Of a stretch of 64,000 nt of DNA, positions 5,032-40,210 are shown piece by piece. Below the pieces are notes generated by a model. It did not search any database. It worked only from the letters and a program-made list of their open reading frames with translations, and was not told the DNA's origin. Origin of the DNA: Methylobacterium variabile. Its GTDB lineage: Bacteria > Pseudomonadota > Alphaproteobacteria > Rhizobiales > Beijerinckiaceae. The DNA is taken from the NCBI RefSeq assembly GCF_001043975.1, contig NZ_LABY01000055.1:1-64000 (forward strand), in the 5' to 3' direction. A program made the translations under genes and the position numbers. Each line of letters starts with the position of its first letter. Position 1 is the first letter of the stretch.

Positions 5032-6089
5032 AGGGCATCACCGTCGCGGCCGGCCTCGCCCGGCCGCACAACGCCTTCGGCGCGGCAAGGCTGGCGCTGG
5101 CCCTCCTCGTCGTGGTGTCGCACGGCTTCAGCGTCACCACCGGCCTCGTCCTCGACGAGCCGCTGGCGCGGGCGACCGGCTACACGCTCGGCGAGCATGC
5201 GGTGAACGGCTTCTTCGCCGTCTCGGGCTTCCTCGTCACCATGAGCCTGATGCGCCGCGGCGCCCGCGACTACGTCGTCGCCAGGGCCTTGCGCATCGTC
5301 CCCGGGCTGGTGGCGGCGACGCTCGCCGTGGCGCTCGGCCTCGGCAGCCTGATGACGAGCCTGAACCTCTCCGCCTACTGGGGCGATCCGGCCCTGTGGC
5401 GGTTCATCCAGGGCACGCTCACCACCTTCAAGAGCAACGCCGCCCTGCCGGGGGTCTTCTCCGAGAACCCCTTCCGCTTCCCGATGGGGACGGTCTGGAC
5501 GCTCAAGTACGAGGTTCTGTGCTATCTCGGCCTCCTGGCGGCGGGGCTCCTCGGGACGCTCCGCTGGCGCTGGCTCGCCCCCCTTCTGGTCGCCGGCCTC
5601 GCGGTGGCGCTCGCCGCCGCCGGCCTGCGCGAGGGCGAGATGCCCAAGGGCCTCGAGACGTCCTTGCGCCTGCCGCTGATCTTCGCCGCCGGCGCGGCCC
5701 TGTTCCTCTACGCCGACCGCGCCACCTTGAGCTGGCCGCTGGCGCTCGCGCTCCTGGCCCTGGCGGCGCTCGTGCATGGCACGGCCCTCTACCCGCCCGT
5801 GCTCTTCCTCGCCGAGGCCTACGGCGTGCTCTGCCTCGGCCTCGCCCCGCCGATCCGCCACCCCGTCCTCGACCCGCGGGCGGACCTCTCCTACGGCACC
5901 TACCTGTACGGCTGGCCGGTGCAGCAGAGCCTGCACGCCCTGTTCCCGACGGCCTCGGCCTGGCTGCTGCTGGGGCCGTCGCTCGTCCTCACCCTCGCGG
6001 TGGCGGCCCTGTCCTGGCGCTTCGTCGAGCGGCCGGCGCTGGGGTGGAAGGCCAGGGTGATGGGGAAGCGGCGCGAGGCGCTGGCCTGA
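5025..6089 (+). CDS. Acyltransferase 3 family membrane protein
   Basis: This 354-aa integral membrane protein has about ten hydrophobic segments. The family signs are NAFGAARLALALLVVVSHGF with the catalytic-type His near residue 30, NGFFAVSGFLVTMSLMRRG, and LSYGTYLYGWPVQQ near the C-terminus. Relatives O-acetylate exopolysaccharide or lipopolysaccharide sugars using cytoplasmic acetyl-CoA. The start codon lies inside the end of the glycosyltransferase gene, which argues for joint action on one glycan. Confidence 0.85.
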   Translation: MVKGITVAAGLARPHNAFGAARLALALLVVVSHGFSVTTGLVLDEPLARATGYTLGEHAVNGFFAVSGFLVTMSLMRRGARDYVVARALRIVPGLVAATLAVALGLGSLMTSLNLSAYWGDPALWRFIQGTLTTFKSNAALPGVFSENPFRFPMGTVWTLKYEVLCYLGLLAAGLLGTLRWRWLAPLLVAGLAVALAAAGLREGEMPKGLETSLRLPLIFAAGAALFLYADRATLSWPLALALLALAALVHGTALYPPVLFLAEAYGVLCLGLAPPIRHPVLDPRADLSYGTYLYGWPVQQSLHALFPTASAWLLLGPSLVLTLAVAALSWRFVERPALGWKARVMGKRREALA

Positions 6090-9406: not shown

Positions 9407-10276
9407 ATGACCAGCCTCCGCACCCTCGCGATCGACTTCGAGACCGCCAACGAGCGCCGCGACAGCCCCTGCGCCGTCGGCCTCGCCTGGATCGAGGGCG
9501 GGCGGGTGGTGCGGCGGGAAGCGCGGCTGATCCGCCCGGCGGAGATGCGCTTCTCGCCCGGAAACATCCGGGTCCACGGCATCCGGCCGCGGGACGTGGC
9601 GAACGCGCCGTCCTTCCCCGAGGCGATGGCGCCGTTCCTGCCGGAGATCGCCGGCAGCCTCGTGCTCGCCCACAATGCGAGCTTCGACGTCGGGGTGCTC
9701 GCCGCGACGCTCCAGGCCTATGGGCTGTCGCAGCCGGCCTACACCTCGCTCTGCACCGTGCAGCTCGCCCGGCGGCACTGGCCGGGGGAGGGCGGACAGG
9801 GGCAAGGGACCTACCGGCTCTCGGCGCTGGCCGCCCGGGTCGGCGTGACCTTTCGCCACCACGATGCCGGCGAGGACGCCTATGCGTGCGCCGAGATCGC
9901 GCTGGCGGTGACGCGCGAGGCCGGGGCACCGGACATCGCCAGCCTCGCTCGGCGCCTCGGCCTCGTCCGGGAGCGGGCCGGGCAGGGGGCGCCGTCGCCG
10001 GACGGCATCGCGGCCCGGGCCCTGCGGGCGGTGGCGCCGATTCGCAGCCGAACGCCGCTCCTGCACTTCGTCGTCCGGGGCAGCACCGGTACGCCCTACG
10101 ACGTGCGGCTGATCGAGGGACGCGACGGGCCGCGCCTGCGCTGTTCCTGCGCCGGGGCGCGGTTCCGGCCCGATTGCCGGCACGTCCGGGCGCTGGCCAA
10201 CGGCGAGGTCGATGCACTCCTGTCGGGCAATCCGGGAGACGTGGCGGCTCTGGCCGGGCTGCTGCGGCAGGCTTGA
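9407..10276 (+). CDS. DEDDh 3'-5' exonuclease with C-terminal SWIM-like zinc cluster
   Basis: The 289-aa protein begins with a DnaQ/RNase T-type exonuclease. AIDFETAN is Exo I, HNASFDVGVL (about residue 89) is Exo II, and HHDAGEDAYA (about 152-160) is the Exo III His and Asp. The C-terminal part carries LRCSCAGARFRPDCRHVRAL (about 242-262). This fits the CxC...CxH pattern of SWIM zinc fingers, which bind DNA or protein. ATG 9407 was chosen because residues upstream fall inside ligA and lack family similarity. The gene follows ligA by 32 bp, suggesting a DNA-processing role. Confidence 0.8.
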   Translation: MTSLRTLAIDFETANERRDSPCAVGLAWIEGGRVVRREARLIRPAEMRFSPGNIRVHGIRPRDVANAPSFPEAMAPFLPEIAGSLVLAHNASFDVGVLAATLQAYGLSQPAYTSLCTVQLARRHWPGEGGQGQGTYRLSALAARVGVTFRHHDAGEDAYACAEIALAVTREAGAPDIASLARRLGLVRERAGQGAPSPDGIAARALRAVAPIRSRTPLLHFVVRGSTGTPYDVRLIEGRDGPRLRCSCAGARFRPDCRHVRALANGEVDALLSGNPGDVAALAGLLRQA

Positions 10277-10352
10277 GGCCGCCGCACCGATCTCTCCCGC
10301 CCCGCCCGTTCCGGGCCGGGACGCTTTCGAGGCCGAGCCCTGGACATGACAA

Positions 10353-10383
10353 AGGCGGGTCCGCACTCGCGTGCGGCCCGCCT
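10353..10383. terminator. Bidirectional hairpin between convergent genes
   Basis: The stem AGGCGGG/CCCGCCT plus CCGCAC/GTGCGG has one bulged T and a TCGC loop. It lies between the exonuclease gene and the convergent 82-aa gene, so it can serve both. Confidence 0.6.
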
Positions 10384-10418
10384 CGTACGGTGACGGCGGA
10401 TGATGTCCCGCTCAGCCC

Positions 10419-10667
10419 TTAATGGGCTTCGCGTAGGGCCACCGCGTTCGGCTTCAGGCCGAAGCGCTCGGCGAGATGCCAACGCAGCTCGCGGGACGAG
10501 TGATAGCCGTAGCTACGGTCGATCAGGTGGCTGACGTCGGTCGGGTTCTTGCCCTCGCCGAAGCGGCTGATCTGGTCGACGTGAAAAGTGGTGCCGTCGT
10601 TGAAGACGGTCGGCGCGCCGTCGCGCCGGGTAAACTCGAACAACATGGATGTCTTTTCTTCTATCAT
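10419..10667 (-). CDS. Small conserved-looking protein of unknown function, sigma-EcfG promoter
   Basis: I do not recognise this 82-aa protein. It is hydrophilic, without signal peptide or membrane segment, and contains YGYHSSRELRWHLAERFGL, an amphipathic helix-rich C-terminal half. ATG 10667 was chosen because GAGGAG lies at good Shine-Dalgarno spacing upstream; the later ATG at 10646 is possible. Upstream are an exact sigma-EcfG promoter and a CtrA-type box. It is probably a stress- or cell-cycle-regulated accessory protein. Confidence 0.7.
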   Translation of the reverse strand: MIEEKTSMLFEFTRRDGAPTVFNDGTTFHVDQISRFGEGKNPTDVSHLIDRSYGYHSSRELRWHLAERFGLKPNAVALREAH

Positions 10668-10751
10668 TGCGCCGCTCCTCATCGGAGCGACTGTGCGTGG
10701 CAGGCGGCCGGGTGGCCGCCAGCGGAGCATGCGATGAGCCCGCGGGCTCAC

Positions 10752-10776
10752 AACGCTCCAGTACGGCCAAGGTTCC
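10752..10776 (-). promoter_or_regulatory. Sigma-EcfG promoter (GGAAC-N17-GTT) of the 82-aa gene
   Basis: On the minus strand GGAAC (10776-10772) and GTT (10754-10752) are separated by 17 nt. This matches the general-stress sigma factor EcfG promoter of alphaproteobacteria exactly. It would give a leader of roughly 80 nt. Confidence 0.65.
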
Positions 10777-10781
10777 GTAAC

Positions 10782-10802
10782 CTTAACGGTAGACCCGTTA
10801 AG
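10782..10802. promoter_or_regulatory. Inverted repeat CTTAACGG/CCGTTAAG
   Basis: A perfect 8-bp inverted repeat with a 5-nt spacer lies just upstream of the EcfG -35 and shares one TTAA with the CtrA-type box. It may be an operator or help paired binding. Confidence 0.5.
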
Positions 10803-10812
10803 ATCACGTTAA
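10798..10812 (-). promoter_or_regulatory. CtrA-type box (TTAA-N7-TTAAC)
   Basis: The minus strand reads TTAACGTGATCTTAAC, which fits the CtrA consensus TTAA-N7-TTAAC exactly. It lies about 22 bp upstream of the EcfG -35 element. In DNA this GC-rich the motif is rarely met by chance. Confidence 0.55.
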
Positions 10813-10829
10813 CCTAGGCCGTGGCCGCC

Positions 10830-11042
10830 TCAGGCGACCTGCAGGTTCACGGCAGACATCTTCGTGCTGTCGCGCCGGTCGGCCTGCAGCTCGTAAGAGA
10901 CCTTCTGGCCCTCGACGAGGCCGCGCAGGCCAGCCCGCTCCACCGCGGAGATGTGGACGAAGACGTCCTTGCCTCCGTTATCCGGCTGGATGAAGCCGAA
11001 GCCCTTCTGGTCGTTGAACCACTTGACAGTACCAGTATTCAC
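10830..11042 (-). CDS. cspA: Cold-shock domain protein
   Basis: This 70-aa protein is a single cold-shock domain, an RNA and single-stranded DNA chaperone. Both RNA-binding motifs are present, KGFGFIQ (RNP1) and VFVHIS (RNP2). The protein starts with the typical [11 protein letters not shown]. The next gene on the same strand, 160 bp downstream, has its own stress promoter. Which of the several Csp paralogues of the genome this is cannot be told. Confidence 0.93.
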
Positions 11043-11265
11043 GCGGTCGTCCTCGTCTCGTTAGAAGTCGCGACGGGCCGCCCTCAGGCGAGAGCAGCGC
11101 GGCGCGACGGCGCCAATTGTCCGGGAGGGGGCTGTGTCGCGGGGCCCGAAAAGCCCACGCGGGGCTTAATCGCCCGAGGCCGTCCGCCCGTTGTCGCTGA
11201 ACCCCATGTAGGAACCCAGTCTGTCCGGAACAAGGCAGGGCGGCCTCGAATGCGCGGAAGGCGTG
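11043..11265. other. Leader and promoter region of cspA
   Basis: The spacer between cspA and the next small gene probably holds a long cspA leader, common in this family. I see no convincing promoter hexamers, no EcfG motif and no strong terminator. CGCGACGG/GGCGCGACGG runs near 11070-11115 could pair with the leader only weakly. Confidence 0.4.
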
Positions 11266-11472
11266 TCAGCGGTTGGTGCGCCCGCGCTGGTTGGGGTCGA
11301 CGCCGCCCTGCGGCGTGGTGTCGTTGGCCACGTCGCCCTCGGCGGTGTTGGCGCCGGCGAGATCCTCCGGATCGCCGCCGGACATCCTCATGCCCTTCGA
11401 GGTGCCGATGCCAGGATTGCCCTTCAGGTCGGCGTCGGTCGGTGTCGTGGTCTTCGGCTGCTTGGAGGTCAT
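11266..11472 (-). CDS. Small hydrophilic disordered protein
   Basis: The 68-aa product is rich in Gly, Asp, Thr, Asn and Pro and has no hydrophobic core (KGNPGIGTSKGMRMSGGDPE, then NTAEGDVANDTTPQGG). It is probably intrinsically disordered. It follows the DUF6496-like gene by 26 bp on the same strand, so the two are likely cotranscribed. I do not recognise a family. Confidence 0.65.
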   Translation of the reverse strand: MTSKQPKTTTPTDADLKGNPGIGTSKGMRMSGGDPEDLAGANTAEGDVANDTTPQGGVDPNQRGRTNR

Positions 11473-11498
11473 GCGGGGCTCTCCTCGAGTGAGCCCGC

Positions 11499-11819
11499 TC
11501 AACGGTTGAGGGCCTGCTCCAGTTCGCTGCGGCTCATCCGCGAGCGGCCCTTGATGTCCCGGCGCTTGGCCTCGTCGTAGAGCGCGGCGCGGGTAGCCTG
11601 GGACCGCGTGTCGCGCTCCTTGGCGCGGGTCCGGCGGAAGTGCGCCCGGTTGTCCGCCGGACTCTCCTGGTTCGATGCGCCGGCCTCCCGCAGGGCGATG
11701 GCGATCGCCTGCTTTCGGTCCTTCACCGGCTCGCCGTCGCGGCGCTCCAGCTCGCCTTCCTTGAACTCGTGCATCACCCGGGCGATCGTGCCCTTCTGGG
11801 CCTCGGTGGTCCTGGCCAT
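11499..11819 (-). CDS. DUF6496-like protein with Rho_N-like C-terminal segment
   Basis: The product is 106 aa and highly charged. The first half (IARVMHEFKEGEL, then KDRKQAIAIALREAG) resembles DUF6496 proteins, where K-x-A-I-A-I recurs. The last 30 residues (ALYDEAKRRDIKGRSRMSR then ELEQAL) resemble the Rho N-terminal/SAP-type helix-extended-loop-helix that binds nucleic acid. Together they suggest a small nucleoid- or RNA-associated stress protein. The upstream region has a near-match to an EcfG promoter. Confidence 0.7.
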   Translation of the reverse strand: MARTTEAQKGTIARVMHEFKEGELERRDGEPVKDRKQAIAIALREAGASNQESPADNRAHFRRTRAKERDTRSQATRAALYDEAKRRDIKGRSRMSRSELEQALNR

Positions 11820-11865
11820 CGGCCTGCTCCGTCCGCGGGCGCCGTGCGCGCCCTCTCGCACGATC

Positions 11866-11890
11866 AACGCCGCCGATGCCGGCGCGTTTC
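11866..11890 (-). promoter_or_regulatory. Near-consensus EcfG promoter (GAAAC-N17-GTT)
   Basis: The spacing equals that of the exact EcfG promoters nearby, but the -35 reads GAAAC instead of GGAAC. It lies about 47 bp before the DUF6496-like gene. Confidence 0.35.
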
Positions 11891-11982
11891 GGGGTATGCA
11901 GGACGGGCTTGCGTGGAATTCCCTGTCGCGTCCGGCAGATTGCTCCCATATACGGGCGACATCGTGCAGTTTCGGACGCTCC

Positions 11983-12369
11983 ATGGCGGGTATCTCGGTC
12001 TCCCTCGAAGGTTCCAACATCCAGCTCTCGTTCCAGAAGGACGATCAGGCCACCGCGGTCATCATGGATGCCAGCGCGGCCCGCGCCCTCGTGCGCGCAG
12101 TCGGCCAGCTCCTCACGGTCATGCACGAGCCGGACGAGGCCGACATGGACGACCTCGGCGACGAGGAGGCGGCGATGCTGGACGTGACCTCCGCGGCGAT
12201 CGAGGTCGGCACCGACGAGCAGGGCCAGGCCGTCGTCGCCCTCCAGGCCGGAGGACTGCCCCCGTTCCAGCTCCGCCTCACCGACGAGGAGGCGCGGCAC
12301 GTCGCCACCAGCCTCAACGAGATCCTGAACGCGCCGCGGGATGTGCGCAGCTCGCACGGCGGCCACTGA
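11983..12369 (+). CDS. Acidic protein of unknown function
   Basis: This 128-aa protein is strongly acidic and has no signal or membrane segment. It alternates predicted strands (ISVSLEGSNIQLSFQKDD) and helices, with an Asp/Glu-rich centre (HEPDEADMDDLGDEEAAML). LRLTDEEARHVATSLNEIL closes the fold. I do not recognise it. The start is uncertain: an ATG at 11895 in the same frame would add 29 residues, but the residues before 11983 look unstructured. Confidence 0.65.
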   Translation: MAGISVSLEGSNIQLSFQKDDQATAVIMDASAARALVRAVGQLLTVMHEPDEADMDDLGDEEAAMLDVTSAAIEVGTDEQGQAVVALQAGGLPPFQLRLTDEEARHVATSLNEILNAPRDVRSSHGGH

Positions 12370-12388
12370 CGACGGGACCCGACAGCGA

Positions 12389-12415
12389 GAAGGGCGCCCC
12401 GAGCGGGCGCCCTTC
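12389..12415. terminator. Hairpin terminator after the acidic protein gene
   Basis: GAAGGGCGCC pairs with GGCGCCCTTC around a short loop, 20 bp beyond the stop at 12369. Repeat copy C follows immediately. Confidence 0.6.
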
Positions 12416-12430
12416 GTGCGTCTCATCCCG

Positions 12431-12520
12431 GAGCGCTCACGCGTCGACGCGTGAGCGCTCGGCGCCCGTTCAGGCTCATCCCGCGCCGCGGAACGGCTCC
12501 GTTCGGCGGCGCAGCAGACT
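12431..12520. repeat. Diverged copy C of the palindromic element
   Basis: The last 60 bp (12461-12520) align without gaps to the last 60 bp of copies A and B at about 45 identical positions. The 30 bp before it (12431-12460) form a perfect palindrome, as in A and B, but the stem sequence is entirely different. The 17-bp linker present in A and B is missing. As in copy B, the final T of the element is the first base of the stop codon (TCA read on plus) of the adjacent minus-strand gene. Confidence 0.7.
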
Positions 12521-12741
12521 CAGAAGCGTGTGCCGGGATTGGTCGGGCCGCCCGGCAGGTAGTCCGGCTCGGAGCCGGGCCCGGTCGGGTCGGTGATGCC
12601 CGGATCGTTCACCGGATAGGGCGAGCGCGGCCCGGTCGGGCCGGTATCGGGCAGCTCGTCGGGTGCGACGGGCGGCGGGATGTCGCCCGGAATGCCGCCG
12701 CCGGGGTTCGGCTCGTGCCCGGGCATGCCTGGATTGGCCAT
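12520..12741 (-). CDS. Small Pro/Gly-rich disordered protein, sigma-EcfG promoter
   Basis: The 73-aa product consists mostly of Pro, Gly, Asp and Thr with loosely repeated motifs (GPTGPRSPYP, DPTGPGSEPD). No signal peptide or folded domain is visible. The ATG at 12741 lies about 37 bp from an exact EcfG promoter that is back-to-back with the one of the DJ-1 gene. It is probably a stress-induced disordered protein. I cannot assign a family. Confidence 0.65.
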   Translation of the reverse strand: MANPGMPGHEPNPGGGIPGDIPPPVAPDELPDTGPTGPRSPYPVNDPGITDPTGPGSEPDYLPGGPTNPGTRF

Positions 12742-12777
12742 GGTCGTGCCTCCTCTCGGGTTGGGGGTATGAGAGTC

Positions 12778-12802
12778 AACCGGCCCGGCGCGGCGCAGTT
12801 CC
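12778..12802 (-). promoter_or_regulatory. Sigma-EcfG promoter of the Pro/Gly-rich small gene
   Basis: Minus strand GGAAC (12802-12798), 17 nt, then GTT (12780-12778). The -10 is about 37 bp from the start codon. Confidence 0.65.
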
Positions 12803-12818
12803 GTCGCGGCAGGCGGCC

Positions 12819-12843
12819 GGAACCGGCCTGACCCAAGGTCGTT
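12819..12843 (+). promoter_or_regulatory. Sigma-EcfG promoter of the DJ-1/PfpI gene
   Basis: GGAAC (12819-12823), 17 nt, then GTT (12841-12843), 36 bp before the ATG at 12880. It diverges from the preceding EcfG promoter, with 16 bp between their -35 elements. Confidence 0.7.
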
Positions 12844-12879
12844 GCCAGGGCATCCCATACTCCCGCGGAGAATAAGCCG

Positions 12880-13425
12880 ATGCCCAGCATCACGCAGGCG
12901 AAGATCCTCATCATGGCGACCGACGGCTTCGAGCAGGCCGAGCTCGAGGTCCCGAAGGCCAAGCTGGCCGAGGCCGGCGCCCAGGTGACCGTAGCGGCGC
13001 CGAGATCGCGCCAGAAGCCGGAGAGCATCCGCGGCTGGGACAAGACCGACTGGGGCCGCCCGGTGACGGTCGACGCCGACATCGAGAGCCTCGATGCGGC
13101 CGCCTACGATGCCCTGGTGCTGCCGGGCGGGCAGATCAACCCGGACAAGCTGCGCCTTGAGCCCAAGGCCCTCGAGATCCTGCGCGGCTTCCTGGCGAGC
13201 GGCAAGGTCGTCGCCGCGATCTGCCACGCGCCCTGGCTGCTGGTCGAGGTCGGTGCCGCCAAGGGCCGCAAGATGACCTCCTTCGCCTCGATCAAGACCG
13301 ACGTCATCAATGCCGGCGCCGAGTGGCACGACCAGCCGGTCGTCACCGACAAGGGAATCATCACGAGCCGCAACCCGGGCGACCTCGACGCCTTCTCGGC
13401 CAAGATCATTGAGGAGGTTCAGTAA
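12880..13425 (+). CDS. DJ-1/PfpI family protein (deglycase/protease-like)
   Basis: This 181-aa protein of the type I glutamine-amidotransferase-like fold has the nucleophile elbow AICHAPWLL (Cys about residue 115), the paired acid in GFEQAELEVP and the strand YDALVLPGG. Relatives such as PfpI and YhbO are stress-induced and are reported to act as proteases or glyoxal-damage repair enzymes. The exact EcfG promoter directly upstream fits a general-stress role. The chemical activity cannot be decided from sequence. Confidence 0.92.
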   Translation: MPSITQAKILIMATDGFEQAELEVPKAKLAEAGAQVTVAAPRSRQKPESIRGWDKTDWGRPVTVDADIESLDAAAYDALVLPGGQINPDKLRLEPKALEILRGFLASGKVVAAICHAPWLLVEVGAAKGRKMTSFASIKTDVINAGAEWHDQPVVTDKGIITSRNPGDLDAFSAKIIEEVQ

Positions 13426-13456
13426 GGCCGCCACGACCGCGCGGCGGCGTGACGGC

Positions 13457-13487
13457 GAAGGGCGGGACGCTTGGCGCCCCGCCCTTC
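13457..13487 (+). terminator. Terminator hairpin of the DJ-1/PfpI gene
   Basis: GAAGGGCGGG pairs with CCCGCCCTTC around an 11-nt loop, 32 bp after the stop codon. There is little T tract. Confidence 0.6.
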
Positions 13488-13563
13488 GCTCGCATCCCGG
13501 TTGCCGTGTGCTGTTTACCGCGTGCCCCCGGACGCCGGTTCGGGGGCACGTTTCGCCTGGTGA

Positions 13564-16500
13564 TCAGGCGGTGGCGAAGGGATCGATCCGGGCGTCGTTG
13601 AAGGCCTGACGGCCCTCCACGGCGCCGAACATCAGGTAATGCACCATCGGGTCCACCTTGGCCGACGCCACATCCGGGTTCGCCGCCAGGTAGTCGGTGG
13701 TGTCGAAGCCGGCGGAGGGGTCGCGGCCCTCCTTGTAGCCGTACAGGTCGTAGTGCAGCAGCGGGTCGACGTTCGCCTTCGCCACGTCCTGGTAGGCGTT
13801 GAGGTAGCCCTTGGTGTCGAACACTGCGTTCGGGTTGCGGCCCTCCTTCCAGCCATACAGCTGGTAGTGCTGGCGCGCGAAGGTCGCCCCGTCCGCCCCC
13901 AGCACCAGTGCCGCCGCCGCCACGTCGGTGTTTGACAGCAGGTAGTACTCGGCGTCGAAGCCGCCGGCGGTGCCGACGTCGGCGGCCTTGCCGATCGCGG
14001 CGTAGGCCTGGCGTCCCTCGTCCTGGCCGTAGGTCAGGAAGTGAGCGAGGGGATCGACGCCGGCGGCGCGCACGTCGGGGTTGCGGGCGAGGTAGAGCTC
14101 GTTGTCGAAGGCGGCGGAGGGGTCGCGGCCCTCCTTCCAGCCTGACTGGTCGTAGTGCTCGAGCGGGTTGACGCCGGCGGTGCGCACGTCGCGGTTCGCG
14201 GCGAGGTAGCCGGTGGTGGAGAAGAAGGCGCTAGGGTCGCGGCCCTCGCGCCAGCCGAAGGCGGCGTAGTGGGCGTCGGCATCGACGCCGGCGCGGAACA
14301 CGTCCTGGTTCCGGGACAGGTAGTGGAGGTCGTCGACCAGGCGGTTGGCGTCGTCGACCGCGATGGTGGCGTCGTTGAAGCGGAAGCGCTCGAAGCCGCT
14401 GACCAGGTCACGGCCCTGCGGTCCGCTGATGAGCGTCAGGCTGTTGGCCTGCGAGACCGTGACGTCGGCGAAGTTGGCGTTGATCACGAGGGTGTCCGTG
14501 CCGCCGCGGCCGGACAGGCGGTCGTCATACGGCGTGCCGGTGATGACGTCGTCACCGTTGGTACCGACCCGGTTGATGCCGCGGGCCAGCACCGTGTCGC
14601 CGCGGGCGGCGACGTTCTGGATCCGGGTGTCGCCGGCCGGCGTAGTGTCGGCGGTGCCGAACGGCGTGGTGGCGTAGAAGGCGCGCAGGTACTCGGCCAT
14701 CGCGTCCTGCTCGGTGCCCTGCGCCGCGAAGGTCGCGGAGTTCGGCAGCGAGGAGCCCGGGGTGGCGGAGGCGAGCGCCACCTTGTTCTCGCCGTAGGCC
14801 GGGAACGGGTAGTTGTCGCCGCCCAGGCCCGGCGCGGCCGCGGTGCCGGTGGCCAGGAAGTCGAGGGTGACGGTGCGGATGCCGCGGTTCGGGTCGCCGA
14901 CGAGCTGGCCGTTCTGCACCAGCGTGTCGAGGATCCGGCCGTTCTCGTCGACGATCGCCGCGTTGAGGATGCGCTGACCCTCGCGGGTGACGTTGCCGTT
15001 GGCATCGACGGTCTGCGACTGCTTCGTGGCGTCGAAGGAGAAGCTCAGGCCGCCGATCTGCGGGAACTGGCCCGGGGTCGCGCCGGCGGCGGTGGCCGAG
15101 ACCGCGTGCTCGAGGATCCGCTTCATCTCCAGCGCCGAGACCGTGGTGACGGCGAGCGCGTTGTTGAAGCGCAGCGAGTTGGTGACGTCGAGCTGGGAGA
15201 TGTCGCCCGCCTGCTTGCCCGCGGAGGGATTGGCGGCCGGGGGCAACTCGGCGGTGCCGCCGCCGGAGGTCGAGAACGAGCCGATCGAGTCGCGGATGCC
15301 GCCGCCGTTCTTGATCGAGACAGCGACCGAGCTGTCGTACTGCTTGGCGTACCAGAGGTTCGCGTCGGCGCTGAGGTCGCCGAGGTTGGTCTCCTCGGTG
15401 CGGACCTCACCGCGGCGTCCCTCAAGGTAGACGCTGGTGCGGCCCAGGATGTTGCCGTCCTGCTGGCGGATGATGTCGGCGACGCCGGCGGTCTCCTGCA
15501 CGCCGTCGTTGTTGACGTCGAGACCCTCGATCATCTCGCGGACGAGGAAGCCCTTGCTGCCGGGGGTGAAGGCCGCGGCGGTGGACCCCCAGAGCTGCGC
15601 CACGGAGGTGTCGTCGACCGCGACCGCGCCCGAGTTCTGCGGCGTGACCGAGTCGCGGATGACGTTGCCCTGGTCGTCGAAGGTGACGGTCAGGCGGCCG
15701 ACATAGGAGTACTCGGAAGCCGTGTTGACCAGGGCCAGGGTCTGGCCGGTGGCGTTGGTGAAGAACTGCGGGTAGGCGCCGCCCGAGGTGTCGCCCGGCA
15801 GGAGCCGGTCGTTCGAGTCCGACAGCAGGGTGTGCGAGCCGCCGCCGATCAGCACGTCGACGTTGCGCAGCAGGGGAGCGAGCGCCTGCTCGTTGGCGAG
15901 CTGCTGCAGGTGGGTGCCGACGATGACCTTGTTGAGGCCCGGATTGGCCGCGAGCACCCGGTCGACCTCGGCGTTGATCTGCTGGGCGAGCAGCGCGATC
16001 TCGTCTTTGCCGGTGAAGCCCTCGAGGGTGACGTTGCCGAGCGTCGTCAGCAGCGGCTCGAGCTGGGTGGTGGCGCCGATGAAGGCGATCTTCTCGCCGT
16101 TCTCGGTGATGATCGTCGACTTGGCGATCTTGTCGGCGCCGGTCCCGGTCTGGGTCGAGGTCGGGCCGGTCTGGGCGAAGGTGGCGGCGTCGCCGTCGGC
16201 GTGGACGAGGCCCGAGAGGGCCGATTCCTTCGAGAAGTTCAGGTTCGCCGACAGGTAGGGGAACTGCGCCCCGACCCAGGTATCGTCCGCCGCGCCGGCC
16301 GCGGTGCCGAGGTTGGCCCCGATGATGTTGGCGACCTCGGTCGGGCCGGAATCGAACTCGTGGTTGCCGAACACCGCGGCCTGGACGCCGATGATGTTCT
16401 GGATCGTGATGTCGGCCCGGCCCGGCGAGGCGGTGAGCCGGCTGTAGGCGCCCGCGCCCGACAGCCCGTAGAGCTGGTTGTAGACGCCGTTATAGGTCGC

Positions 16501-19500
16501 GTTGAGCTGCGGGTCGGCGCCGGCGATGAAGAACGGGCTCGGGATCCAGCCGTCACCGGTCGAGAGAGTAATCGAGTTCGGGGTCGCGTCCTCGAGCTTG
16601 TCGACGATCGCCGCGAAGTTCGCGGCGCGCTGGGTCGCCAGGAGGCCGGCCTCCCAGTCCGAGGCGTGCAGGATCTGGAGCGTGTAGGTCATCGGGGCAG
16701 CCTGCTGCGTGGTGAAGTCGAGCTGGTCCTGCGCCAGGCCCGCGAAGGCGTTGCCGGCCGCGTCCGTAATCGCGCCCGTCGGCACGATGACGTCGTAGGC
16801 CTTGCCCGCCCCGAGGTCGGCGCTCGGGTTGATCGTCACGGTGTCGCCGCTGACGGCGACCTGAGCGGTATCGGAGACCGCAATGGTGCGGGTGTCGCCC
16901 GCCCCGTCGGTGATGGTGATCGAGCCGGTGCCGGCCTTCACCGCCTCGCTGAAGCGTAAGGTGATGTTGGCGCCGGGTGCGACCCCGGTGGCGTTGTCGG
17001 CCGGGGTGGCCGAGACCAGCGTCGGCGCGGTCTGGTCGAGCTTGAGGCCGACCAGGATCGGGTCGTGGTCGGATTCGCGCGCCGCGACCCGGCCGTCGAA
17101 GTACGAGGGGGACCGGCCGAAATCGAGGTTGTAGTCGATCGCGTCCGCCTCGTCGGCGTTGACGTGCCACTCGGTCACGCCCGTCACCTGGCCGTTCAGG
17201 CTGCCATTGGCGAAGGCGTGGTCGAGGGCGCCGTAGGCCCCGTCGAAGACGTAGGAATACGGGTCGGCGAGGCGATCCTCGGCGAGGTTGGTGAAGCCCC
17301 CGGCCTTGATGGTGTCGAGGGCGTCCTCCTTGATGTAGGCGTTGAAGTCGCCGAGCAGGATCGTGTCGGAATCCTGAGTGCCGGTCGGCTTCGTCGCCAC
17401 CCACTCGGTCAGCGCCTTGGCGGCGAGCTCGCGCTGCTGCTGCCAGGCGCCCTGGCTGTCGCCCTGGTCGGCGTCGGCCCCGGTGCCGCTGCCGCTCTTC
17501 GACTTCAGGTGGTTGATGACCGCCGTAAAGTCCTCGCCCGTCGCAGTCTCCCGGAAGGTCACCGCCAGGGACGCGCGGCTGGTGTTCACCCCGTTGAAGA
17601 TGTGGCCGACCGTGCTCTGCTGCAGCAGGGCGGGGTCGATCTGCGCCACGTCGGCGTCGTCGAGCTTCTCGATCGTGGTGTTGAGCGCGACGCTCACCTT
17701 GCTCGGCTTGTAGATGAAGCCGACCGCGATGGCGTCGCCGCCGAGGAACTGGCCCTGGTCGAGCTGGCTGCCCGGATTGACGTGGGCGTAGGTGCCGGCA
17801 CCAGTTCGGGCGTTGAGCTGGCCGACGAGGTATTCGAGCGCGTTGCCCGGGTTGCCCGGCTGGAACTGGTTCTCGAGCTCGGTCAGGCCGAGGACGTCGG
17901 CCCCGGTGCCGATCAGCGTCGTGACGAGCTTCTCGGTCTGGCGCGCCAGCTCCTCGCTCGTGTTGGCGCCCCGCGGCGCCTGGCCGATCGCCGTCAGCGA
18001 GCTCGACGAGGCGTTGAGCGTCGTGAAGTAGTTGAGGACGTTGAGGCTGCCGACCTTCAGCGTGCCGCCGACCGCGTCCGGGGTCGCCGGGCGCGGGTTG
18101 GCCTTCACGAAGGTGTTGTCGCCGTCGTTGATCGCCCGCACCCGGAAGGCGCCGGTCGGGCCGTAGCCCAGGGTGCCGGTGAGCCCGGTCACGGTGTCGC
18201 CCATCCGCGGCGCCGTGGCGGTGGAATAGGTCGGGCCGAAGCCGTCGAGGTTCTCGATCGGCAGGTTCTGCGAGTTCTGCCCGTCGTCGTAGGTGATCGA
18301 GCGCGCCGCGGTCTGCGCGAGGTAGGCGGCGTAGTTGGCCGCGTTCGGCTCGAACGCGTTGGTGAAGGTCTCGGGCCGCCCGCCCGCGGCGAGGCGGATC
18401 TCGTTGAAGCGGTCGAGGTTGAACTGCTCGGTGATCGAGAGGGTCTGGGGCAGGCGGACCAGCATGCCCTCGTAGCGCTCGAGGTCCGGCTGCGCGGTGG
18501 TGCCGGTGCCGACGACCCCGGCGGCCGTCAGGGTGACGTCGACCGCCTGCGCCTTGACCTCGGCGGCGGACAGCGCCCCGGCCTGCACGACCTGGATGCC
18601 GGAGGCGGCGTTGACGGTCACCTGCGTCTCGCCGTTGAACTCGGTGACCGTGCCGGTGACCCGCACCCGGTCGCCCTCGTTGACGTCGACGAGGCGGTTG
18701 CCGGTGCCCTCGTAGACGAACACGCCCTCCGAGGTCAGCGGGTTGGAATCCTGGTCGGCCCGCTCCTCCTGCAGGTAGAAGCCGCCGATGCTGCGCTTGG
18801 CGTCCGCGTCGCCGTTCTGGAAGTCGCCGACGACGAGCGCCTCGATCGTGACGGTCTGGCCGACGAGCAGGCTGGCGCTGCCGGTGCCCTGCACCGCCGA
18901 GATCAGCGTGACGTCGTCGTTGAGGATGGTGCCGGTCGCGGTGCCGGCGCTGGTGCTCACCGCCGCGGTGACGCCGGCCTGGTTCGAGGTGGCGCTGCGG
19001 AGCGTCAAGCCGAAGGTCTCGTTCGGCTCGGGGGTCGCGTCGCCCTGCACGGTGACGTTCACCACCGCCGAGGCGGCGCCCGCCGGGATCGTCCCGGTGA
19101 TGGTCAGCGGCAGGCCGGGAGCGCCGGCGAAGTCGGCGGCGTTCGCTGCGCTGGGGCCGGTGCCGGTGAGCTCGGCGGTGAAGGTGACCGCGCCGAGGGT
19201 GCCGTTGCTGCGCTGGACCGTGAAGCTGACGGTCGTGGTGCCGCTGTTGCCTTCCGCCTGGCTCACGTTCAGCGAGTTCGGGGCGAAGGAGATCTCCTGG
19301 GTGTAGCCCTGCGGCAGCGCGGCGTAGAGCGTGGCGCCGCCATTGGCCACCTCGTTGGCCGAGATCACCAGGGGCGTGCCGGTCGGGTTGCGGTCGGCGG
19401 CGATGAAGGTGAGCACCTCCGGGCCGAGATCCGCGGGGGAGCCGGCGAGCGGCGGCACGTAGGAGACGTAACTGGCGTTCGCCGGATCGGTCACGTCGTA

Positions 19501-21891
19501 GACGAGGACGCCGCTCTGGCGCTCGAGGCCGACGAAGGCGTAGGTTCGGCCGTTCACCGTGCCGACCGTGATGCCCTCGGGCTCCGGGCCCTTGTTGTCC
19601 GAGCGGTCGTCCGGCGTGTTGGCGACGGTCTGGTCGTTGTTGAAGCGCTCGGGGGCGATCTGGGCGAAGATCTTCTCGAACTCGCCGCCGGTCTCGCGCA
19701 CCTTGGTGATGGTGCCGTCCTGGTTCTGCCGGAAGATCGAGATGCCGCGGCCGCCGAGCGTGTTGAGCTGGTCGATCACCCCGTCGCCGTTGGTGTCGCC
19801 GGTGCGCAGGAGCACGTTGAGGCGCGCATAGGCCGGATCGGCCTTGAGCGCCTGCAGTTCGGGCGTCAGCCGGCTGTTGGCGATCGTGCTCAGGCGGGCG
19901 ACGTCGCCCGTGTCGTCGGCGCCGCCGATGACGCGCTGGTCGCCTTCGTTCGCCGTGACGAAGTAGGTCGCGCCGCCGGCGGTGAACGAGGCCACCGCGT
20001 CCGGCTGGAGCAGGCCGTAGATCGGGGCGTTCGCCGGCGTCGAGGCGATGCGGATCGAGGCGGTGCCGCCCGTGCCGTCGCGGTCGGAGGCGTCGAACTC
20101 GTTGCCGGGCAGCGAGTGGTTGACCGCGCCGAGCGGCTGGATCGCGATCGGCGCCGTGCCCGGGTTGGCGAGGTCGATCACCGCGACGCCGTTCACCTCC
20201 TGCAGGGTGACGTAGGCGAAGCGGTTGTCGGGTGAGATCGCGATGTATTCGGGCTCGATGTCGGCCGCGGCCGCGTTGCCGGGGGTGATGGCGAGGCCGC
20301 GGGCCCGCAGGGTCGCCTCGGCGCCGTTCAGCCCCTCGAACCCGACCGTCCCGGTGACGGCCGCCGAGGCGGCCCCGCCCGAGACGTCGATGATCGAGAC
20401 GCTGCCGACCGGGTTGCTTCCGGCGCTCGCCTGCTCGCCCTCGTTGGCGACGAGGAGGCGGCTGCCGTCGCGGGTGAAGACGATCTGGTCGGGGCCGACC
20501 CCGACGGTGAGCGAGCGCAGCAGCGTGCCGTCGGCGTTGAACAGCGCGACGCGGCCCGCCGCGTCCCCGGTCGTGTTGGCGTAGGCGACCGCCACGAGGC
20601 CGTTGAAGACCGCGACCGAGTTCACCGCGCCGTACTGCTCGAGGCCGGAGAGCAGGATCTCGCCGGTCTTGGTGAGGGCGCCGGCGGCATCCAGCGCCAC
20701 GATCTCGATCCGGTTCTCGTTGGTGTTCTGGACGTAGAGCCGGCTGGTCGTCGAATCGTAGGCCACGACCTCGGCGTTGGGGGCGGCCGACGTCGCCGCA
20801 TCGTTGGTGGTCGCATAGGCGCCGAGCCGCACGAGCTGGAGCGCGTTCGTCGCCGTGGGCGGCGTCGTGGCGGTGGCGCCGGACAGGCCCTGCAGCGAGG
20901 GCGCCACGTCGTAGATCGCGGTGCCGTTGATCCGGGTGCCGGCATCGTCGTTGAGGATCGTGCCGGTGCCCTGGCCCTTCGCCACCGTGGCGCCCGAGAC
21001 GTTCGCGACCGTCACCGTGAAGGTCTCGGTCGGCTCGACGACCGTGTCGCCGGCGACGTCGACCGCGAAGGTGGCGCTGGTCTGGCCGGCGGCGATGGTC
21101 TGGCGGGTCAGGCTGCGGGCGGTGTAGTCGCTGCCGGCCGTCGCGCTGCCGTCGGCGGTGGCGATGTCGAAGGTGACGCCGCCGGCGGGGGCCGCAGCGC
21201 TCAGCGACACCGTGAAGGTGAGCTGCCTGGTACCGGAATCGCCCTCGGTCGCCTGGACGTCGTCGATCGACAGGGTCGGCAGGGGCTGGGCTGCGGTCAC
21301 CGTGAAGCCGTCGTAGCTGCCGGCGCCGATGCGGGTCGTGTTGTTCTGCGTCCAGGACGAGGTCGACCCGACGGAGGCCAGGATCTGCTCGCGGGTGCCC
21401 GAGGTCGGGCCGGCGTAGCGGCCGTTGGTGGAGGGGAGGGCCACCGCGGTCTGGCCGAGGGTCAGGCCCGGCGGCAGGGCCGAGGTGCTGGCGGTGGTGG
21501 CATTGGCGGCGAACGTGGTGCCGCCGTCGGCGAAGTTGATCGCGTACAGGAAGGTCGGGCTCGCGGCCGTCCCCTGGTAGGCCAGGATCTGGTCGCCCGA
21601 GGCGTTCAGCGCGAAGTTCGGCGCCGTGAACACCGGCGAGTTGGTGCCGCCGGCGGCCGTGTCGGTGGTCGGCCGGATCACCGTGCCGGCGGCGAGCGCC
21701 GTCGGTGCCGTGTAGGTGTAGGTGCCCTCGCCGGTCCGGAACGCGTTGGTCGCGGAGTTCCAGCCGTTGTCGGTGAAGCTGATGGCCGTGCCGGCCTCGA
21801 CGTCCCTGAGGACCACGAAGGCGAAGTCGTCGGGGTTGGTGGCATCGTAACCGACGATGGCGATGTCGCCGGCGGCAAGCGTCGTGGCCAT
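13564..21891 (-). CDS. Giant secreted multidomain nuclease/5'-nucleotidase, probably type I secreted
   Basis: The 2775-aa protein chains at least eight modules. They are an N-terminal beta domain (1-203), a Calx-beta unit (about 205-315), a beta-propeller of the choice-of-anchor-I type (about 349-863), a second Calx-beta (about 872-990), and a YhcR-like OB fold (about 999-1180). An ExeM/NucH-type endonuclease/exonuclease/phosphatase domain (about 1278-1620; SLNVLNYF, LTELEN, SDHDPILVGL) is followed by an SbsA-like Ig domain. Then come a metallophosphatase/5'-nucleotidase (about 1733-2430; HASDWEAG, GNHEFD, KNGGGIRDS), one RTX-like stretch (NGDDVITGTPYDDRLSGRGG) and six 37-aa repeats. No Sec signal is evident, so type I export is inferred; no transporter is nearby. 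It could turn extracellular DNA into nucleosides and phosphate. ATG 21891 is preferred; 22002 would add 37 residues. Confidence 0.85.
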   Translation of the reverse strand: MATTLAAGDIAIVGYDATNPDDFAFVVLRDVEAGTAISFTDNGWNSATNAFRTGEGTYTYTAPTALAAGTVIRPTTDTAAGGTNSPVFTAPNFALNASGDQILAYQGTAASPTFLYAINFADGGTTFAANATTASTSALPPGLTLGQTAVALPSTNGRYAGPTSGTREQILASVGSTSSWTQNNTTRIGAGSYDGFTVTAAQPLPTLSIDDVQATEGDSGTRQLTFTVSLSAAAPAGGVTFDIATADGSATAGSDYTARSLTRQTIAAGQTSATFAVDVAGDTVVEPTETFTVTVANVSGATVAKGQGTGTILNDDAGTRINGTAIYDVAPSLQGLSGATATTPPTATNALQLVRLGAYATTNDAATSAAPNAEVVAYDSTTSRLYVQNTNENRIEIVALDAAGALTKTGEILLSGLEQYGAVNSVAVFNGLVAVAYANTTGDAAGRVALFNADGTLLRSLTVGVGPDQIVFTRDGSRLLVANEGEQASAGSNPVGSVSIIDVSGGAASAAVTGTVGFEGLNGAEATLRARGLAITPGNAAAADIEPEYIAISPDNRFAYVTLQEVNGVAVIDLANPGTAPIAIQPLGAVNHSLPGNEFDASDRDGTGGTASIRIASTPANAPIYGLLQPDAVASFTAGGATYFVTANEGDQRVIGGADDTGDVARLSTIANSRLTPELQALKADPAYARLNVLLRTGDTNGDGVIDQLNTLGGRGISIFRQNQDGTITKVRETGGEFEKIFAQIAPERFNNDQTVANTPDDRSDNKGPEPEGITVGTVNGRTYAFVGLERQSGVLVYDVTDPANASYVSYVPPLAGSPADLGPEVLTFIAADRNPTGTPLVISANEVANGGATLYAALPQGYTQEISFAPNSLNVSQAEGNSGTTTVSFTVQRSNGTLGAVTFTAELTGTGPSAANAADFAGAPGLPLTITGTIPAGAASAVVNVTVQGDATPEPNETFGLTLRSATSNQAGVTAAVSTSAGTATGTILNDDVTLISAVQGTGSASLLVGQTVTIEALVVGDFQNGDADAKRSIGGFYLQEERADQDSNPLTSEGVFVYEGTGNRLVDVNEGDRVRVTGTVTEFNGETQVTVNAASGIQVVQAGALSAAEVKAQAVDVTLTAAGVVGTGTTAQPDLERYEGMLVRLPQTLSITEQFNLDRFNEIRLAAGGRPETFTNAFEPNAANYAAYLAQTAARSITYDDGQNSQNLPIENLDGFGPTYSTATAPRMGDTVTGLTGTLGYGPTGAFRVRAINDGDNTFVKANPRPATPDAVGGTLKVGSLNVLNYFTTLNASSSSLTAIGQAPRGANTSEELARQTEKLVTTLIGTGADVLGLTELENQFQPGNPGNALEYLVGQLNARTGAGTYAHVNPGSQLDQGQFLGGDAIAVGFIYKPSKVSVALNTTIEKLDDADVAQIDPALLQQSTVGHIFNGVNTSRASLAVTFRETATGEDFTAVINHLKSKSGSGTGADADQGDSQGAWQQQRELAAKALTEWVATKPTGTQDSDTILLGDFNAYIKEDALDTIKAGGFTNLAEDRLADPYSYVFDGAYGALDHAFANGSLNGQVTGVTEWHVNADEADAIDYNLDFGRSPSYFDGRVAARESDHDPILVGLKLDQTAPTLVSATPADNATGVAPGANITLRFSEAVKAGTGSITITDGAGDTRTIAVSDTAQVAVSGDTVTINPSADLGAGKAYDVIVPTGAITDAAGNAFAGLAQDQLDFTTQQAAPMTYTLQILHASDWEAGLLATQRAANFAAIVDKLEDATPNSITLSTGDGWIPSPFFIAGADPQLNATYNGVYNQLYGLSGAGAYSRLTASPGRADITIQNIIGVQAAVFGNHEFDSGPTEVANIIGANLGTAAGAADDTWVGAQFPYLSANLNFSKESALSGLVHADGDAATFAQTGPTSTQTGTGADKIAKSTIITENGEKIAFIGATTQLEPLLTTLGNVTLEGFTGKDEIALLAQQINAEVDRVLAANPGLNKVIVGTHLQQLANEQALAPLLRNVDVLIGGGSHTLLSDSNDRLLPGDTSGGAYPQFFTNATGQTLALVNTASEYSYVGRLTVTFDDQGNVIRDSVTPQNSGAVAVDDTSVAQLWGSTAAAFTPGSKGFLVREMIEGLDVNNDGVQETAGVADIIRQQDGNILGRTSVYLEGRRGEVRTEETNLGDLSADANLWYAKQYDSSVAVSIKNGGGIRDSIGSFSTSGGGTAELPPAANPSAGKQAGDISQLDVTNSLRFNNALAVTTVSALEMKRILEHAVSATAAGATPGQFPQIGGLSFSFDATKQSQTVDANGNVTREGQRILNAAIVDENGRILDTLVQNGQLVGDPNRGIRTVTLDFLATGTAAAPGLGGDNYPFPAYGENKVALASATPGSSLPNSATFAAQGTEQDAMAEYLRAFYATTPFGTADTTPAGDTRIQNVAARGDTVLARGINRVGTNGDDVITGTPYDDRLSGRGGTDTLVINANFADVTVSQANSLTLISGPQGRDLVSGFERFRFNDATIAVDDANRLVDDLHYLSRNQDVFRAGVDADAHYAAFGWREGRDPSAFFSTTGYLAANRDVRTAGVNPLEHYDQSGWKEGRDPSAAFDNELYLARNPDVRAAGVDPLAHFLTYGQDEGRQAYAAIGKAADVGTAGGFDAEYYLLSNTDVAAAALVLGADGATFARQHYQLYGWKEGRNPNAVFDTKGYLNAYQDVAKANVDPLLHYDLYGYKEGRDPSAGFDTTDYLAANPDVASAKVDPMVHYLMFGAVEGRQAFNDARIDPFATA
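13580..14340 (-). repeat. Six C-terminal ~37-aa repeats in the giant secreted protein
   Basis: Six units share FDxxxYLxxNPDV, then VDPLxHY, then GxKEGRDPSA. Units three and four carry insertions and the last ends in EGRQAF close to the C-terminus. Similar units occur in other type I-secreted proteins and beside some glycosyltransferase domains; their role is not known to me. Confidence 0.8.
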
Positions 21892-22206
21892 GTGTTCCAG
21901 TGTCTCCGGGCGCGCGTGAACGGCGGCGGCGCCAAGGCGGGCGCCACCCTTCAGCGCGAGGGCTGTTAGGGCTTGTCGGTTCAGGGAGGCGCGCAGCGGC
22001 ATTGGGCTCGCCCGCGATCGTTCGACGTGTCGGATCGGACCGGGCGAGACTGCCTTGTTACAGCTTGTTTCGGACTGTGATCGCTCTGTATGGGCGTTTT
22101 GCGACAGTGCTGTGAAGGTTAGCGGGCAGGCCCCCGGGCCTGGGCCCGATCACGCGTCGCGCCTCCTCGCGACCGCGCCGGTCGGGACGGGTGGCTCCAA
22201 CGCGAA
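21892..22206. other. Promoter region of the giant gene
   Basis: This spacer between the giant gene and the dctP terminator holds no other gene that I can support. It is less GC-rich around 22050-22120, where the promoter is likely. No Pho box, EcfG or CtrA motif is convincing. Confidence 0.5.
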
Positions 22207-39889: not shown

Positions 39890-40210
39890 GGAACTGGTCC
39901 TTCCTACTATGCGGCGGCGATCGCGCCCGTTTGCGGGTCGGCGACCAACCGAAGCAGTGTCTCCGACATACCCCGGCAGCCTTGTGAAAGCTGTGTCCTC
40001 GCGACAACGCTGGTGAGTTTCACCGCAGCCTTAACGGCTGTTCATCGCGAGCATTCCCCTTGGCTCCTTAACCCCTCAACGCATGCGAACGGCCAAGGTT
40101 CACGAACGCACGAATTTTTTTGCTACGCTTGCCTGGCGAATCCTAACGAATGTCGAACGGCGCCCTAAAGGGATGATTCGGGCCGCCCCGAACCGGTCCG
40201 CGGGTCAGCC
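39890..40210. other. Promoter region of the outer membrane protein gene
   Basis: The 321-bp spacer has no gene. It is AT-rich from 40020 to 40160 and contains two TTAAC motifs, a 7-T run at 40114-40120 and an inverted repeat CCTTGGC (40058-40064) with GCCAAGG (40092-40098). The promoter lies on the minus strand; GGAAGGA is the Shine-Dalgarno of the gene. Confidence 0.5.

Follow-up and report, generated by a model that had tools for sequence, protein, structure and literature searches.

Does the small-gene island at positions 10419-13425 of a Methylobacterium variabile contig belong to the general stress response (GSR), and if so, which of its genes are read by the sigma factor EcfG? In the alphaproteobacterial GSR, phosphorylated PhyR sequesters NepR from sigma-EcfG under stress, and many genes of the response have no known action. 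The stretch of DNA analysed here (the window, 64 kb; contig C501 of the 7.43-Mb genome G000) had originally been predicted to carry at this place a set of mostly disordered small proteins under EcfG control. From comparative sequence analysis, we consider it highly probable that the island is a genus-wide GSR locus of Methylobacterium acting by the full mechanism proposed below. Two of its genes, encoding the Pro/Gly-rich protein p73 and a DJ-1/PfpI family protein, are predicted to be new targets of this known regulon.

The divergent promoters of p73 and DJ-1/PfpI

The p73 gene (12520..12741, minus strand) encodes a 73-amino-acid (aa) protein conserved throughout the genus, and the DJ-1/PfpI gene (12880..13425, plus strand) encodes a protein of 181 aa assigned by Pfam and NCBIfam profiles and by alignment. 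Their EcfG-type promoters are divergent, 16 nucleotides (nt) separating the −35 boxes: GGAAC-N17-GTT at 12778..12802 (minus; GAAC-N16-GGTT) before p73 and GGAAC-N17-GTT at 12819..12843 (plus; GAAC-N16-CGTT) before DJ-1/PfpI. In strand and in distance from the starts at 12741 and 12880, both agree with the M. extorquens EcfG consensus GAAC-N16,17-C/GGTT, which comes from a study in which 490 genes were down in a sextuple ecfG mutant (PMC4814048). A third exact site, GGAAC-N17-GTT at 10752..10776 (minus), lies upstream of a gene first read as 82 aa. Coordinates and strands of these three had been predicted correctly, and they are the sole exact matches in the window at spacers of 16-18.

The original expectation of one or two random matches per window was about right. 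Dinucleotide shuffles gave a mean of 2.16 matches (spacers 16-18 combined), 35 of 100 reaching three, and permuted motifs at N17 (n = 89) averaged 0.72 per window, with 6 of 89 reaching three. The count alone is thus not significant, and what holds of the claim that three in one cluster are telling is the clustering itself, which was rarer than in the controls: three matches inside 2.1 kb were produced by none of the 89 permuted motifs and at none of 55 other spacers. With the published consensus the window contains seven matches, of which four lie in the island, including one at 11501..11525 (minus) that had been overlooked; seven random positions achieve four within 2.1 kb in 0.4% of trials. 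In the whole genome, 181 exact N17 matches were counted vs 90 for a reversed-pattern control.

For a census of the genus, the island stretch was taken from 111 genomes, the window's own and 110 further ones, and the 150 nt upstream of each gene were searched. As the published GAAC-N16,17-SGTT is equivalent to GGAAC-N17,18-GTT, sites were recounted with the wider pattern GGAAC-N16-18-GTT. The island carries five minus-strand genes (75-aa, cold-shock, 68-aa, DUF6496 and p73) and two on the plus strand (128-aa and DJ-1/PfpI). The order 75-aa, csp, 128-aa, p73 was kept in 109 of the 111 genomes; in G008 the contig ends after csp, in G004 p73 is not in the stretch taken, and both have a close copy on another contig. 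DJ-1 follows p73 in 90 genomes, in one of which (G013) a DUF6496-like gene lies in between.

The p73 site was present in 105 of 109 genomes and the DJ-1 site in 86 of 90; 83 of the 90 genomes having both genes carried both sites. In the strict published form GAAC-N16,17-C/GGTT, sites were found before DJ-1 in 70/90 and before p73 in 67/109. A narrower census (GGAAC-GTT, spacers 16-17) gave 75/90 and 74/109, respectively, vs 14 and 35 for the best of 89 controls, and permuted −35 controls (n = 87) had, for p73 and DJ-1, a median of 0 genomes and a 95th percentile of 7. DJ-1 spacers measure 17 in 75 genomes and 18 in 11; those of p73 measure 17 in 68, 18 in 31, 16 in six and 22 in six. Over fixed boxes, mean pairwise spacer identity was 0.415 for p73 (61 distinct N17 sites) and 0.37 for DJ-1 (73 distinct N17 sites); the base after GTT is mostly G and that before GGAAC mostly C. 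Because the boxes stay fixed while the spacers diverge, the divergent pair is judged real, and the prediction that p73 and DJ-1/PfpI are under EcfG-type control is strongly supported. That the sites are chance matches in a GC-rich genome, as the shuffles reaching three and the 90 control matches might suggest, is scarcely credible against fixed boxes over diverged spacers in so many genomes and a spacer peak at 17-18.

In 19 genus genomes, p73 is present with no adjoining DJ-1, and 18 of these keep the site; one of the 19 (G031) ends 279 bases further. A search for DJ-1 elsewhere in nine of the 19 found just 44-48% relatives in five (G031, G053, G059, G082 and G096) and weak matches only in G015, G020, G069 and G081.

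Beyond the census, a set of 80 named DJ-1 loci was used, comprising 18 from Methylobacterium, 4 from Microvirga and 58 from other Alphaproteobacteria. The closest of these are Methylobacterium loci, 92% identical and with identical gene order. A site before DJ-1 was present in 17/18, 4/4 and 36/58 loci, respectively; at spacers 16-17 in the DJ-1 sense the counts were 16, 3 and 25, vs control maxima of 4, 0 and 11. On the divergent side, a site was found in 16/18 Methylobacterium, 4/4 Microvirga and 6/58 other loci. At spacers 16-17, 11 of the 18 Methylobacterium loci retained it vs a control maximum of 4; outside Methylobacterium, the divergent site is not above controls at these spacers. All four Microvirga loci again have p73 as the divergent gene. 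Four Rhizobium-type loci (L065, L067, L070 and L076) also combine the two sites, but the divergent gene there is not p73; the two of these divergent genes that were scanned are cupin-like, one above the Pfam cut-off and one just below.

The nepR-phyR locus served as a positive control within the same genome. Contig C81 carries the best NepR and the best PhyR at one locus, with PF18557 and PF22233/PF22029 above cut-off, and five exact EcfG-type sites surround them (G000:C81:3000-11500). Two of these are divergent between nepR and phyR (C81:5873-5897, minus; 5908-5932, plus), so that GGAAC-N17-GTT marks this locus too. Exact sites also precede a KGG stress protein, a 67-aa protein with no Pfam match, and what is presumably a DUF1328-like small membrane protein. 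The likeness to the island is that of two EcfG-type sites back to back; the nepR-phyR pair drives regulators with 10 nt between, whereas the island pair serves a Pro/Gly-rich protein and an enzyme.

A different ECF (extracytoplasmic function) sigma factor with a similar promoter might instead read the p73/DJ-1 pair, given that AAC-type −35 elements are frequent among ECF promoters and commonly shared. M. extorquens has six EcfG proteins, according to PMC4814048. We regard such a factor as rather improbable here, since boxes and spacing equal both the published M. extorquens EcfG consensus and the nepR-phyR sites of this genome. The resemblance to the sigma-EcfG regulon of M. extorquens AM1 (PMC4814048) extends to consensus, spacing, upstream position, the same or a sister genus, and the presence of PhyR and NepR; the evidence from the island is conservation instead of expression.

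Several observations weigh against reading the pair as EcfG promoters of a genus-wide locus. The genomes counted belong to one genus and are not mutually independent, DJ-1 is missing in part of it, and 4/90 DJ-1 and 4/109 p73 genes have no exact site. The genome-wide motif excess is just twofold here and is absent in some of 109 genus genomes (G069, 85 vs 125; G007, 91 vs 116), and one of 35 permuted controls, with 13 matches in all, also has four within 2.1 kb. Among the permuted −35 controls, CGGAA-GTT reached 47 genomes for DJ-1 and 64 for p73, and GGCAA-GTT reached 21/109 for p73; the former is read as the same site shifted by one base, C being the usual base before GGAAC. Outside the genus, 22 of the 58 other alphaproteobacterial DJ-1 loci are without a site. 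For the divergent site at spacers 16-17, the 4/4 of Microvirga is matched by a control that also gives 4, the 6/58 of the others compares with a control of 5, and two of those six sites (L034 and L085) result from reading the DJ-1 site itself on the opposite strand.

For the p73/DJ-1 pair as EcfG promoters, the following mechanism is proposed. Under stress, phosphorylated PhyR would take NepR off sigma-EcfG, the genes for PhyR and NepR both being present in this genome. The freed EcfG-RNA polymerase would then read the divergent pair, giving DJ-1/PfpI one way and p73 the other. We infer transcription and EcfG dependence from the motif, its placement, its conservation and the gene order. A literature search, in which supplementary tables were not covered, found no report naming p73, DUF6496 or a PfpI gene as an EcfG target; in the R. 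etli papers, the only hit for 'ThiJ' was the name of an author, Thijs.

The p73 and PfpI proteins

Among its 73 residues, p73 counts 21 Pro and 14 Gly, with a core around PYPVNDPGI..PGSEPDYLPG. In an alignment of 32 genus sequences, 32 of 73 columns were invariant, and a comparison of 11 full-length ungapped sequences, all distinct, showed roughly sevenfold more differences at third codon positions than at first or second ones, a pattern that speaks for strong selection on the protein. Pfam and NCBIfam gave no match at E 0.1. Like the KGG small stress proteins and similar small GSR proteins, one of which stands behind an EcfG-type site near phyR, p73 is short; it differs from them in matching no Pfam family, KGG included. 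Its composition makes it probably disordered, and p73 would most likely act as a small disordered protectant or interaction peptide.

Sampling 397 genomes of the order turned up relatives of p73 in 15: nine belong to the genus, five are spread over two other genera, and a third contributes one partial match. In the genus g83, an exact site stands at −50 in two of four relatives, and GGAAC-N18-GTT was seen by eye in the remaining two; the relative at L272, outside the genus, has no site upstream. A class-wide family was considered and rejected, only 2 of 387 sampled genomes having matched, both Methylobacterium. The protein has the look of an overlooked part of the stress response, and its apparent strong selection together with the genus-wide EcfG-type promoter makes it a good candidate for direct tests.

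The DJ-1/PfpI protein is a clear member of the PfpI subfamily (PF01965, 165.4 bits; TIGR01382, 165.4 bits, above cut-off). Its nearest solved chain is 2vrn, 'Protease I', which we take to be from Deinococcus. It shares the Pfam/NCBIfam family and the conserved Cys-His pair with the PfpI/DJ-1 methylglyoxalases (P. aeruginosa PfpI, 8r3n; E. coli YhbO, 1oi4), and differs from them in the EcfG-type promoter in front and in that its activity is predicted. Cys115-His116 align with the catalytic Cys112-His113 of P. aeruginosa PfpI, a methylglyoxalase according to PMC11987610. Through this pair, the island protein would probably remove methylglyoxal and related carbonyls, whose clearance is also its most likely part in the mechanism proposed above. 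The M. extorquens phyR, ecfG1 ecfG2, quintuple and sextuple mutants are methylglyoxal-sensitive and single ecfG mutants are not (PMC4814048). This sensitivity fits the PfpI role, without showing this gene as the cause, and the island PfpI could explain it in phyR and multiple ecfG mutants. On the other side stands the P. aeruginosa pfpI deletion, in which none of the stress phenotypes reported earlier was seen (PMC11987610).

Promoter-like sites of the window's clade

Among the 111 genomes, the 68-aa gene (11266..11472, minus) and the adjoining gene for a DUF6496 protein of 106 aa (Pfam PF20106; 11499..11819, minus) are restricted, at this position, to the window's own clade of 20 genomes. In the window's own genome, PF20106 matched the window copy only. 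The site at 11501..11525 (minus), GAAC-N17-CGTT, is embedded in the last eight codons and the stop of DUF6496: its −35 is formed by a GAA codon, and its −10 by the last codon, CGT, and the T of the stop. Of 36 pattern variants searched at this place, GAAC-N17-CGTT was found in 19 of the 20 genomes and all others in none, counts that are not independent, the 20 being close relatives. The published promoter form GAAC-N16,17-C/GGTT is thereby conserved before the 68-aa gene, which starts 25-40 nt past the last DUF6496 codon in 16 of the 20 and 75-130 nt past it in four.

The site might be mere coding sequence, GAA and CGT being kept for translation at the gene end: it falls within the DUF6496 gene and its stop, the encoded residues are conserved and the genomes closely related. 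Codon usage makes this unlikely. GAA is fixed in 20/20 and CGT in 19/20 genomes, whereas in the aligned DUF6496 minus its last 15 codons GAA makes up 26 of 178 Glu codons and CGT 6 of 298 Arg codons. Across the last 75 codons, 52 columns have a conserved residue, and among them these two are the sole codons ending in A or T that are fixed in 18 or more of the 20 genomes. Adjacent synonymous sites vary (GCC/GCG/GCT, GAG/GAA, CTG/CTC), as does the stop (TGA/TAG); the spacing is right for a promoter, and so is the start of the 68-aa gene in those 16 genomes. In the window's clade, the 68-aa gene would thus join the regulon through a promoter in the DUF6496 end, a compact example, if so, of promoter and stop codon sharing sequence.

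Taken together, the evidence on p73 and on the embedded site inclines us slightly towards a joint proposal. In it, p73 would found an undescribed family of disordered Pro/Gly-rich GSR effectors, with an EcfG promoter near-universal in the Methylobacterium examined, even where PfpI is absent, and with relatives in Microvirga and one or more further genera of the Hyphomicrobiales, and a GSR promoter would be written into the last codons and stop of DUF6496 for a second small protein.

Upstream of DUF6496, the fourth predicted site (11866..11890, minus) is, as noted from the start, one base off, GAAAC replacing GGAAC (GAAAC-N17-GTT, then GA). The element occurs in 19 of the 20 clade genomes, with GAAAC in 16 (the window and 15 further genomes) or CGAAC in three, a spacer of 17-18 and CGTTG. 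The exact GGAAC form precedes none of 21 DUF6496 genes, the 21st of which, in G013, has no such element upstream.

The gene predicted as 82 aa is better read as 75 aa (10419..10646, minus), because the start at 10667 is lost in most relatives and the Met seven residues later, at 10646, is conserved. The site does lie upstream of it, and the product has a homologue in all 111 genus genomes. The site itself is lineage-specific: it was found in 18 of the 111, made up of 12 of the 20 genomes of the window's clade (roughly −98 to −111) and six of another group (−41/−42).

How these two sites are to be taken is evenly balanced. The DUF6496 element may be another sigma factor's, and the 75-aa site conserved DNA of the csp-to-75-aa interval, neither of them an EcfG promoter. 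A genome-wide class of GAAAC-N15-17-CGTTG promoters was tried and rejected, such sites showing no enrichment (16 vs 10 in the control). The 75-aa spacer is 0.816 identical within the clade, above the 0.521 of DJ-1 and 0.605 of p73, and of the eight clade members without the 75-aa site two have CGTC and one GAAAC. Against this, the DUF6496 element is conserved over varied spacers (0.64 identical in 10 GAAAC-N17 sites) and has the GAAC core in its three CGAAC genomes, and in G010, G049 and G054 the 75-aa site has retained its boxes although the spacers have diverged. The fourth site thus stands as a conserved element, its deviant −35 counting against it as an EcfG promoter. As members of the regulon, DUF6496 would probably, and the 75-aa gene possibly, join in the window's clade.

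Other genes and sequences of the island

The cold-shock domain gene (70 aa; 10830..11042, minus) and the 128-aa gene (11983..12369, plus), both belonging to the conserved gene order, were each preceded by an EcfG-type site in 0 of 110 genomes (spacers 16-18), and EcfG control of the island as a whole, as first proposed, is not borne out. The description of its products as mostly disordered applies to p73 and, by inspection, to the 68-aa protein; the suggestion that they are new stress effectors may hold for p73. The 75-aa protein is predicted to be folded (mean predicted local distance difference test score, pLDDT, 84.5), with no Foldseek match at E ≤ 0.001 and a best VIA-align Z of 3.3. The 128-aa model (mean pLDDT 68.8, two low-confidence stretches) is PUR-repeat-like: its best match was to Pur-alpha PUR repeats (VIA-align Z 9.3, root-mean-square deviation 3.1 over 103 residues; first other match, Z 7.0), and the best Foldseek E was 0.0021. 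From this model, the protein may possibly be a single-strand nucleic-acid binder beside the cold-shock gene.

A sigma-70 scan of 10200-13700 gave no match, and terminator-like sites in the same range numbered two vs 1.4 expected. An Rfam scan of 9900-14000 at E ≤ 0.5 gave six matches, all under the gathering threshold. Between csp and the 75-aa gene, a GC-rich inverted sequence, GGCGGCC...GGCCGCC, was seen at 10690-10720; by eye it is retained in much of the clade, and it may form a terminator or a structured leader.

Elsewhere in the window, the minus-strand sequence at 40078-40102 reads GAAC-N16-CGTT, then G, in agreement with the published EcfG consensus, with an ATG about 190 nt further; it has CTTGGCCGT in common with the site before the 75-aa gene. 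Next to the island, 13564-22002 (minus) encodes a protein of 2812 aa with RTX repeat matches under cut-off and with choice-of-anchor I, Calx-beta, Big_5 and 5′-nucleotidase C-terminal matches.

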